NCBI GenBank assembly: GCA_016193065.1
Contig: JACPSX010000018.1
Coordinates: 1-5,749, forward strand
Length of the DNA: 5,749 nt
Source: Candidatus Tectimicrobiota bacterium
Lineage (GTDB): Bacteria > JACPSX01
Direction of reading: 5' to 3'
Below the pieces are notes generated by a model, which was not told the DNA's origin, made no database searches, and saw only the letters and a list, made by a program, of their open reading frames with translations. Both the position numbers and the translations under genes were made by a program. Numbering within the stretch: position 1 is the first letter of the stretch; each line of letters begins with the position of its first letter. This document shows positions 3,641 through 5,749 of the stretch, piece by piece.

Positions 3641-3647
3641 TCTCCTT
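3641..3647 (-). promoter_or_regulatory. Ribosome binding site deciding the TTG start of the lipoprotein
   Basis: AAGGAGA on the minus strand has 7 nt between its GGAG core and the TTG at 3634. The upstream palindrome begins 5 nt further on, so structure there could affect access to this site. Confidence 0.7.
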
Positions 3648-3652
3648 GTTCA

Positions 3653-3696
3653 CCCCCTCCCTTCCCCTCCCCCCTGGGGAGGGATGGGTGGGGGGG
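3653..3696. repeat. C/G-rich palindrome with quadruplex motifs on both strands
   Basis: Four C-runs (3653-3674, separated by T, TT and T) are followed by one T and four G-runs (3676-3696, separated by A, AT and T). The halves can fold into an imperfect hairpin. Each G-rich strand also meets the four-tract quadruplex rule with loops of 1, 2 and 1 nt. The element lies in the 102-bp gap between the OB-fold gene and the lipoprotein, immediately upstream of the latter's ribosome binding site. It looks like a member of the dispersed CCCTCCCC/GGGGAGGG intergenic repeat class. Confidence 0.65.
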
Positions 3697-3736: not shown

Positions 3737-4123
3737 TCACCGGGGCAGCGGTGGGGTCAATATAATCTCCTGGGCCACAAAATACCGTATGCTGGTGGCG
3801 TAACCCTTGACGGTCACCTCTTTGGAAACCTGCAGGTCCTCAAATGGGACCGGATTGCCGCGCGGGTCGCGGATGGCCGTCGTGCTGCGAACTTCAACAA
3901 CAATGTCCTCGACCCGGATCGACTTGGGCTGTTGCAGGCGGTCCCGGATGACCCCATGAAAGGAAACCAGCTTCTGGTCCTGGGCAAAGGAGACGGAGGT
4001 AAGCGAGAGGAGACAGAGTGCCGCAACCAGAAGCACGGCAACTGATGCCACCTCCACCCCTCCCCTCCCCGTGTACCTCGGGTGCGGGAGGGTATGGAAG
4101 GGGGGAGTTGCCGTGCGTTTCAT
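3737..4123 (-). CDS. Small secreted OB-fold-like (DUF5666-like) protein with interrupted signal peptide
   Basis: The product is 128 residues from ATG 4123. It begins MKR, continues with a Pro/Gly/Arg-rich stretch encoded by an inserted palindrome (residues 3-30), then the hydrophobic core LLVAALCLLSLTSV and a probable signal peptidase I site SFA/Q at 47/48. The mature part (about 81 residues) has the pattern of small OB-fold domains: a GVI strand, VEVRSTTAIRD, FEDLQVSKEVTVKGYA, and a closing AQEIIL strand. This recalls DUF5666, but I cannot confirm it. ATG 4123 is preferred because deleting the 84-bp insert restores a canonical signal peptide. Alternatives are ATG 4231, overlapping the PilY1 stop as TAATG with GGGAGG 7 nt upstream (164 aa), or GTG 4057/4051 behind purine-rich sequence inside the element. 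Its function in the pilus locus is unknown; a periplasmic ligand-binding or PilY1-partner role is only inference. Confidence 0.7.
   Translation of the reverse strand: MKRTATPPFHTLPHPRYTGRGGVEVASVAVLLVAALCLLSLTSVSFAQDQKLVSFHGVIRDRLQQPKSIRVEDIVVEVRSTTAIRDPRGNPVPFEDLQVSKEVTVKGYATSIRYFVAQEIILTPPLPR
4033..4116. repeat. 84-bp in-frame palindromic element inside a signal-peptide coding sequence
   Basis: The ends are a perfect 11-bp inverted repeat: GCACGGCAACT at 4033-4043 and AGTTGCCGTGC at 4106-4116. The interior (4044-4105) is a C-rich half followed by a G-rich half that pair imperfectly. The length is exactly 28 codons and the reading frame of the host gene has no stop. Joining 4117 directly to 4032 gives a gene starting MKLLVAALCLLSLTSVSFA, a standard signal peptide, which argues for insertion into an existing gene. 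No target-site duplication longer than the shared C at the junction is visible. Confidence 0.75.
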
Positions 4124-4133
4124 TTCAACTCGC

Positions 4134-4179
4134 AAATCCCCCCTTCCCCCCCTTTTTAAAGGGGGGAGCAGGGGGATTT
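4134..4179. repeat. Nested hairpin repeat (AAATCCCCC...GGGGGATTT class)
   Basis: The outer arms AAATCCCCC (4134-4142) and GGGGGATTT (4171-4179) are perfect. The inner arms CCCCCCTTT (4147-4155) and AAAGGGGGG (4158-4166) are also perfect around a TT loop, with a 4+4 nt internal bulge between the two stems. This is a widespread bacterial intergenic palindrome type; mistranslated, it gives strings like PPLKRGGRGD. It sits between the pilY1 stop and the next start, so it would lie in the polycistronic mRNA and could attenuate transcription or affect mRNA stability. Confidence 0.8.
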
Positions 4180-4230
4180 TCTTCAGTGGGGGGGCTATCT
4201 GGAGATGATCTTGTACCGAGCATCTTTCCA

Positions 4231-5749
4231 TTAGAACACCTCCCGCCAGTTCAACAGAGTCTTCAGCGACCCCGTGGAGAGTCCGGTACTGCCGATGACC
4301 TGCCCGTCCGAAGTCCCGACGGTTACGATGACCGACCCGTCGGCCCCCACCGAAACCACCGGCGAGGAAGCCAGTCCGGTCCCCACGCTGATTGCTCGAG
4401 CCGATAGAGCTGCTGCGGTAAACCCGGAAGACTGGACCGCAGCCACATTCGTTGCCCCTCCTCCGGAAAGGAAATGCAGGGCATAGAGCTTGGACGTCCC
4501 GCCGCGGACGCAGGGATCGGCGGACACGGTCGGGGTATAGGTCGAAAAAAACGCGATTTGGTTAAAGACCGTTGGCCGGGAGAGGACCTTCTCTCCCGCC
4601 GCCATGCTGACGAACCACCCCTTGAAGGGAGCCGCCGGCTCAGAGAACGTGTTCGTACCTGATACGTCCGAAAGATTGGTCTCGTTCAGGGGGGTTATCC
4701 CGGACTCGTCGCGAATCGCATAAAATTTGTTGGTGCTGGCGGCATTTTGCGGATCCTCGCGGTTTCCGCTGCCGAAGTAAACCCACAGCCTCGACTGGGC
4801 ATCAAAGGCCACGGCCGGGGCGTAGTAGAAGGGCTGCGTCGCCGTGGCCGTGTTCGATGTGTTGGCCACAAAGAAACGGCTGCCGGACCAGGAACTGGAA
4901 TTCGTGCTGGAGAAGTCGAAGCGCCAGATCTGCCCTCCGAGATCTCCCACGTAGACCCGGTCAATATACCCGTTGCCGTCGGTATCCACGGCCACAGGGG
5001 TCGACGGCAGACTCCAGGTCAGATACTGTTTGTCTCCCGAGTTTGCGTAGGCGTACTTAAACAGCACGGATCCCGTCTTGATGTCCAGCATGTAGAAGGC
5101 ATTTCCCCGGGTCGTCGCGTTCCCTGCTCCGGTGGCGCTCGTGGAATCCCAGCCTCCAGCTACAAGGGCGACCCAGCGCTCCACATCCGTGCTGCCCACC
5201 CGCATCTTGATCCGGCCAACGACCGGGTCCGACCAGGTTTGCCCCAGATTGGAGTCCGTGAAGGTCCACAGGTAGGAGGGAAAGCTCAGCGCAGTCGGGT
5301 CCGTGACATCCAGGGCAAAATAGCTGTTCCCGCCCTTGCGGTTTCCCCCCACAAGAACCGTGCGCCATTCGTTGGCGGTCTTGGTCGTGTCGGTGCTGGT
5401 GGTATAAAACCACACATCGGCAACGGAGGCCTTCAAGTCCACGTAGTACTTATGGGGGTTCGTGCGCATGTCCTTCAGGGTTCCCAGCACGTTGGGTGGA
5501 ATAAACGCCCACAGCTCGGTCCCCGTCCCCGCATCATAAGTGCCCGTGTCCGCGTGGAAATCACCGGCGTGAAAAGCGTGGAGCATGCCGTCGTTGGCTC
5601 CCACGTACACGATTTTCTTGCGGCTGCTGAAGAGCTCTGCAAACCCGCCGCTGCCGCTGAAGCCGTCATCGAAAAAGATCTGGGACGGGGCTCCGACCAC
5701 CACGGGGGTGGAATGGAAGATGTCTCCCAGCTTCCAGGTGCGCTCTTCC
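4231..5749 (-). CDS. pilY1: PilY1 C-terminal beta-propeller region, 5' end outside window
   Basis: PilY1 is the calcium-dependent tip/adhesion protein of type IV pili and controls extension and retraction. The frame is open from the window edge; the 505 visible residues (numbered from the first full codon at 5748) are the C-terminal PilC/PilY1 domain. Motifs in order are KLGDIFHSTPVVVGAP (from residue 6), YVGANDGMLHAF (48-59), ELWAFIPPNVL, NEWRTVLVGG, YFALDVTDP, the calcium loop DTDGNGYID (255-263) running into RVYVGDLGGQIWRFD, WVYFGSGNRED, and a last blade with GTGLASSPVV and TVGTSDGQV. The loop keeps the acidic/Asn positions of the EF-hand-like site known from Pseudomonas PilY1. The N-terminal part, expected to hold the secretion signal and in many homologues a vWA domain, is not in view. 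The stop TAA at 4231 overlaps an ATG by one base. A GTG at 5703 could be mistaken for the start, but the conserved LGDIFHSTP motif lies upstream of it. Confidence 0.95.
   Translation of the reverse strand, partial: EERTWKLGDIFHSTPVVVGAPSQIFFDDGFSGSGGFAELFSSRKKIVYVGANDGMLHAFHAGDFHADTGTYDAGTGTELWAFIPPNVLGTLKDMRTNPHKYYVDLKASVADVWFYTTSTDTTKTANEWRTVLVGGNRKGGNSYFALDVTDPTALSFPSYLWTFTDSNLGQTWSDPVVGRIKMRVGSTDVERWVALVAGGWDSTSATGAGNATTRGNAFYMLDIKTGSVLFKYAYANSGDKQYLTWSLPSTPVAVDTDGNGYIDRVYVGDLGGQIWRFDFSSTNSSSWSGSRFFVANTSNTATATQPFYYAPAVAFDAQSRLWVYFGSGNREDPQNAASTNKFYAIRDESGITPLNETNLSDVSGTNTFSEPAAPFKGWFVSMAAGEKVLSRPTVFNQIAFFSTYTPTVSADPCVRGGTSKLYALHFLSGGGATNVAAVQSSGFTAAALSARAISVGTGLASSPVVSVGADGSVIVTVGTSDGQVIGSTGLSTGSLKTLLNWREVF

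Follow-up and report, generated by a model that had tools for sequence, protein, structure and literature searches.

Does the reading frame of a secreted-protein gene run through a dispersed palindromic repeat, or does the gene begin within the repeat or only behind it? This question is raised by the second gene of an operon in the window, the whole stretch of 5,749 nucleotides that was analysed (contig C294 of a draft genome of 2.9 Mb, 86% complete, in 294 contigs). We give about an even chance to the explanation that the repeat was inserted in frame after an ATG start at position 4231, at the beginning of the second operon gene.

Operon and features of the window

The operon containing the DUF5666-like gene is of the type IV pilus type, with the gene order pilY1, DUF5666-like gene, He_PIG lipoprotein gene, gspH-like gene and pilB (Table 1). 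The DUF5666-like open reading frame encodes 164 residues when read from ATG 4231 and 128 when read from ATG 4123. Three successive gaps of the operon each contain a repeat. The one at 2341-2410, in the intercistronic gap that precedes the gspH-like gene, is a different dispersed-looking palindrome (CCGGCGGAAGCCGGGGTCC...ATTCCGGCGTTCGCCGGAATGACGGGG). As the source is a draft assembly, an assembly error at G/C tracts is possible.

Table 1. Features at the start of the DUF5666-like gene and in its neighbourhood.
Feature	Position	Strand	Basis or remark
pilY1-like gene (partial), upstream gene of the operon	4231..5703	-	PF05567 match
Open reading frame, secreted DUF5666-like protein	3737..4231	-	Pfam PF18914, below cut-off
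ATG overlapping the pilY1 stop (TAATG); GGAGGTG at 4237-4243, spacing 7	4229..4231	-	Proposed original start
Composite dispersed palindromic repeat	4055..4194	-	Clear homology to four other copies; possible extension to ~4045
First hairpin, AAATCCCCCTGCTCCCCCCTTTAAAAAGGGGGGGAAGGGGGGATTT	4134..4179	-	In all four sibling copies
Linker: ATG 4121-4123 and proximal 11-bp arm 4106-4116	4106..4133	-	
Second hairpin of the repeat	4055..4105	-	Alignment, fold
Alternative starts GTG 4057 and GTG 4051, at the repeat end	4049..4057	-	GGAGG from the G-rich arm of the repeat
Distal 11-bp arm	4033..4043	-	In signal-peptide coding region (V-A-V); absent from other copies
Short second copy of the hairpin repeat, next intercistronic gap, directly 5' of the He_PIG gene	3644..3695	-	

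The 84-bp hairpin is not a discrete unit

A preliminary description of this DNA had drawn attention to an 84-bp stretch with perfect inverted ends, in frame and free of stops, shortly after an ATG. This is found in the window: GCACGGCAACT at 4033-4043 has its perfect reverse complement at 4106-4116, the total span is 84 bp, the stretch begins 4 bp (AAAC) past ATG 4123 on the minus strand, and 4033-4116 contains no stop codon in the host frame. Folded as RNA, the 84 nt form a single long hairpin (-54.9 kcal/mol, z -5.8), so that the strong hairpin claimed for the gene start is borne out. Neither the open frame nor the arms are rare. The 84-bp frame is stop-free in 62% of dinucleotide shuffles; perfect inverted repeats of at least 11 bp with a spacer of at most 100 number 0.3 per shuffled window and two in the real window, and 391 kb of the same genome contain 10 inverted repeats (at least 11 bp) with a spacer of 30-100.

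The arms had been taken as the borders of an element inserted between ATGAAAC and TTCTGG. Their perfect match and symmetrical placement around the hairpin speak for such a unit; by our estimate, the chance of such arms around a given hairpin is ~1 in 1000. However, the sibling copies of the sequence contradict it. In these, similarity to the 84-bp stretch begins only at about its position 25 and continues past the ATG into the upstream hairpin at 4134-4179. The proximal arm is part of the repeat in three sibling copies, whereas the distal arm was not found in any other repeat copy in genome searches. No second genome copy has both arms, and the sequence beyond the arms, including the ATG, is common to copies at unrelated loci. 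We therefore consider a discrete 84-bp element extremely improbable. Related copies, for which a genome search had been suggested, do exist for a larger composite repeat, but not for the 84-bp unit as drawn.

Deletion of 4033-4116 on paper yields MKLLVAALCLLSLTSVSFA-Q, with the Sec-like core LLVAALCLLSLTSVSFA-Q, and to this extent the product reads as the signal peptide that had been reported. MKLL... is, however, not an empty site, because ATG 4123 and the proximal arm belong to the linker of the repeat. What the deletion fuses to the gene is thus ATGAAAC from the repeat, and M and K of the product are repeat-derived. The dispersed palindromic repeat with an open frame at the 5' end of a secreted-protein gene stands.

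The dispersed repeat: a composite of ~140 bp

The repeat is about 140 bp long (~4194-4055, minus strand); in it, a linker connects a C/G-tract hairpin with a second hairpin. Including the window, there are five copies (on contigs C210, C178, C274, C17 and C294), the alignment of which defines the shared hairpin 1 (AAATCCCCCTGCTCCCCCCTTTAAAAAGGGGGGAAGGGGGGATTT) and hairpin 2 (CTTCCATACCCTCCC...GGGAGGGGGTGAACAGGGCATTTTCTGA); the linker of the fuller copies is GCGATAAGTTGAAATGGAACGCACGGCAACTCC. The C210 copy matches window positions 4057-4140 at 88%. As part of 4130-4185, the first hairpin folds with -35 kcal/mol. The loop of the second hairpin (4064-4085) is a degenerate copy of a mini-palindrome core, GCACCCAGAGGGTACCCGGGGGG, which is treated below.

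The repeat sequence from which M and K derive reads ATGGAACG in three sibling copies and ATGAAACG in the window. The copies in C210 and C274 have a TAA in the gene's frame just 5' of the linker ATG, and these three bases are missing from the window copy.

The wider hairpin family has 36 matches at E<=0.05. Among 31 copies examined, most are outside genes as judged by a codon-usage score trained on long open reading frames of the same genome, not by a gene finder. A search of Rfam gave no match near a gathering score. In viral contigs, the linker 17-mer had four matches, which are chance occurrences in coding DNA.

Start codon of the DUF5666-like gene

Three start regions were compared, and sequence alone is insufficient for annotation of the N-terminus. 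ATG 4231, which we favour as the original start with confidence at about the midpoint, shares one base with the pilY1 stop codon, and overlaps of -1 nt are over-represented (PMC12548453). The TAATG overlap is located ~35 bp before the repeat and not at its edge. Its Shine-Dalgarno match of 7 nt is found for only 0.8% of ATG triplets in 391 kb. From ATG 4231 the frame is open to the end of the gene; it is also open over 4231-4040 in 14% of shuffles and is therefore weak evidence for this start. The occurrence of mini-palindromes of the same repeat family in frame in three other genes of this genome, mfd, aroB and a glutamine-amidotransferase (GATase)-like gene, also speaks for the favoured reading. 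Against translation from 4231 stand the 12 native codons 4231-4196, which score as non-coding (0.4 percentile of coding stretches), and the resulting n-region of 50-65 residues, which would be unusual for a signal peptide. In addition, copies of the hairpin repeat are mostly outside genes, the next operon gap holds the repeat just before a start codon (3644-3695), and no orthologue with an empty site was found.

Several of these observations fit an intercistronic repeat in an untranslated gap, with the start at GTG 4057 or GTG 4051 and an accidental open frame upstream. We regard this reading, and with it a GTG start, as possible but doubtful. The non-coding codon scores extend over 4231-4058, most copies are intergenic, and the copy at 3644-3695 immediately precedes the next gene start. 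Both GTGs are preceded at 6-7 nt by GGAGG, a Shine-Dalgarno sequence provided by the G-rich arm of the repeat. Yet Shine-Dalgarno sequence and start would both be within the very stable stem of the -55 kcal/mol hairpin, and in G-rich DNA GGAGG arises by chance (matches of 5 nt accompany 7% of ATGs). The N-terminus of the product would be MEVASVAVLLV..., which contains neither Lys nor Arg, and the TAATG start with its 7-nt Shine-Dalgarno match would be left unexplained.

Recruitment of the linker ATG 4123 as start, giving a 128-residue precursor (MKRTATPPFHT...) with a long positive n-region, is improbable in our judgement. The linker between the hairpins is predicted to be single-stranded, and a G-to-A difference from the sibling copies results in Lys at position 2 of a charged n-region. 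However, scoring of the start contexts revealed no Shine-Dalgarno sequence at working distance from this ATG, which is itself part of the repeat.

On the favoured reading with ATG 4231 as start, a selfish or neutral composite palindromic repeat of ~140 bp would have entered the 5' end of the second operon gene, the ancestral start of which would be the ATG overlapping the pilY1 stop. The in-frame repeat would separate the first ~12 codons from the hydrophobic signal-peptide core. The insertion may have been tolerated because the n-region is permissive and the window copy, lacking the 3-bp TAA of its siblings, is stop-free in the host frame. The product would carry ~45-50 repeat-encoded residues ahead of the signal core, unless ribosomes re-start inside the repeat (4123) or at its end (GTG 4057/4051). 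The two hairpins would presumably make initiation slower and lead to protection or processing of the pilY1 mRNA.

Searches for orthologues

A protein search of 59 genomes did not detect an orthologue of the DUF5666-like gene, nor did a search of contigs from a genome collection with the mature protein give a match. In the set searched, the phylum is represented by one genome, which is the source genome itself. PilB, used as query against the contig collection, identified four loci with 48-58% identity. The best of these (L078) has the order pilY1, a small secreted open reading frame starting 4 nt after the pilY1 stop, and pilB. The small protein was considered as an empty-site orthologue and discarded, since relatedness is not demonstrable (p 0.14).

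Mini-palindromes in conserved genes

The mini-palindrome GCACCCAGAGGGTACCCGGGGGG has 21 matches at up to two mismatches in the genome (control 1), and CACCCAGAGGGTACCC is the commonest 16-mer in the 391-kb sample. The octamer GGGTACCC was examined as a HIP1-like over-represented sequence and dismissed (count 35 versus 29.5 expected); it is the 16-mer that stands out.

Copies of the mini-palindrome are found inside several conserved genes. In mfd (L138, contig C51, minus-strand open reading frame 2-2338), an in-frame 24-bp mini-palindrome encodes HPGYPLGA, eight residues in the RNA-polymerase-interacting region; precisely this octapeptide is missing from the solved Mfd chains (E. coli and T. 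thermophilus-type). In aroB (L146, contig C69, plus-strand open reading frame 1288-2523), mini-palindromes account for ~18 extra residues (AGYPQRPEGTRGYPGC) between two conserved blocks, the N-terminal strand and the VVVTN block. The GATase-like gene (L054/L115, contig C27, 10317-11573) contains the palindrome in frame in an N-terminal extension. Here the palindrome is downstream of an ATG preceded by a Shine-Dalgarno sequence, there is no start codon between palindrome and conserved domain, and ~48 residues precede the conserved block, compared with 4-15 in 11 homologues. That in-frame insertion of palindromes occurs, as had been proposed for the window, is thus seen in this genome, and these three genes are better examples than the window itself. 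CtaA (L139) was not accepted as a proven case: a mini-palindrome lies in the open reading frame, but the heme A synthase alignment does not reveal a clean insertion.

These data point, at a confidence just short of even, to a living family of ~24-bp palindromes (8 codons, core GCACCCAGAGGGTACCCGGGG) which inserts in frame into conserved genes and nests in the loops of larger hairpin repeats, that of the window being an example. Its targets would be mfd, aroB and the GATase-like gene, probably also ctaA and a cytochrome gene. Such a family may represent a system of protein-coding palindromes that is not rickettsial and has units several-fold smaller than Rickettsia palindromic elements (RPE).

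Comparison with known repeats

The Rickettsia parallel that had been drawn is apt, as RPE are likewise palindromes that conserved genes carry in frame; one such host protein, guanylate kinase, is produced and active with its insert (PMC2229807, PMC10969869). Like the repeats of this genome, RPE are dispersed palindromes of ~100-150 bp which occur between genes and in frame, with tolerated peptide inserts (PMC2229807, PMC10969869). Several copies of a dispersed palindromic repeat in one genome are seen here for the composite repeat (5), the hairpin family (36) and the mini-palindrome (21). In-frame insertion into genes for conserved proteins is seen for the mini-palindrome, namely in mfd, aroB and the GATase-like gene; the window copy has an open frame in its host gene and may be translated, depending on the start site. 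In contrast to RPE, and compared by description, the host lineage is unrelated and the repeat is a mosaic of G/C-tract hairpins; the units in conserved genes are also much shorter (~24 bp, 8 codons in mfd). In kind, the repeats of this genome can be seen as a variation on RPE-like coding palindromes, earlier descriptions of which concern chiefly Rickettsia.

For MIRU, insertion at the start codons of operon genes is assumed (PMC12548453). They resemble the window repeat in being mobile short repeats at such positions with start/stop overlap between neighbouring frames (PMC12548453). Their spacing is -4 nt (NTGA), whereas here, compared by description, stop and start overlap with -1 nt (TAATG), upstream of the repeat.

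REP and REPIN sequences share with the window repeat that they are short dispersed hairpins, mostly between genes and in some cases inside genes, but are defined by a GTAG or CGTC tetranucleotide at the foot of the hairpin (PMC3733652). This tag is not in the consensus of the copies, the ends of which are TCAG...CTGA-like. A linkage to RAYT was also rejected: repeat matches are absent from the flanks of the two Y1 transposase loci (PF01797).

ERIC and the Correia/NEMIS MITEs are similar in size (~100-150 bp), in forming transcribed hairpins near genes and in their in-frame fusions, and ERIC fusions for which a signal peptide is predicted have been documented (PMC2229807). Unlike in these elements, terminal inverted repeats plus a TA target duplication are not recognisable in the window copy. 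Long forms of the repeat begin near TCAG and end with CTGA; there is no empty site, so no duplication can be read.

Small translated repeats in coding genes are a source of new protein segments and are known mainly from Rickettsia. If the present reading is true, the palindromes which this unrelated lineage has in frame in mfd, aroB and an amidotransferase-like gene would show that the process is not confined to Rickettsia. The 8-residue unit could serve as a simple system for testing which protein positions tolerate inserts.

Further observations on repeat copies

Three other loci are of separate interest. The 3' end of an ABC-2 permease gene (L044, contig C210, minus-strand open reading frame 1484-2632) runs ~42 codons into the full composite repeat; its Pfam match stops early, and the gene may be truncated by the repeat. 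A nested insertion was found in contig C200 (L053/L086), where a second palindromic repeat (of the TTCATGGTTCGACAGGCTCACCACGAACGG type) is located in the loop of a hairpin copy. In contig C144 (L166, position 14102), an open reading frame of 550 codons contains tandem hairpin units (GGGTACCCGCCTGGCGGGTGCCCGCCTGGCGGGTG) in frame near codon 20, apparently just past its signal peptide.
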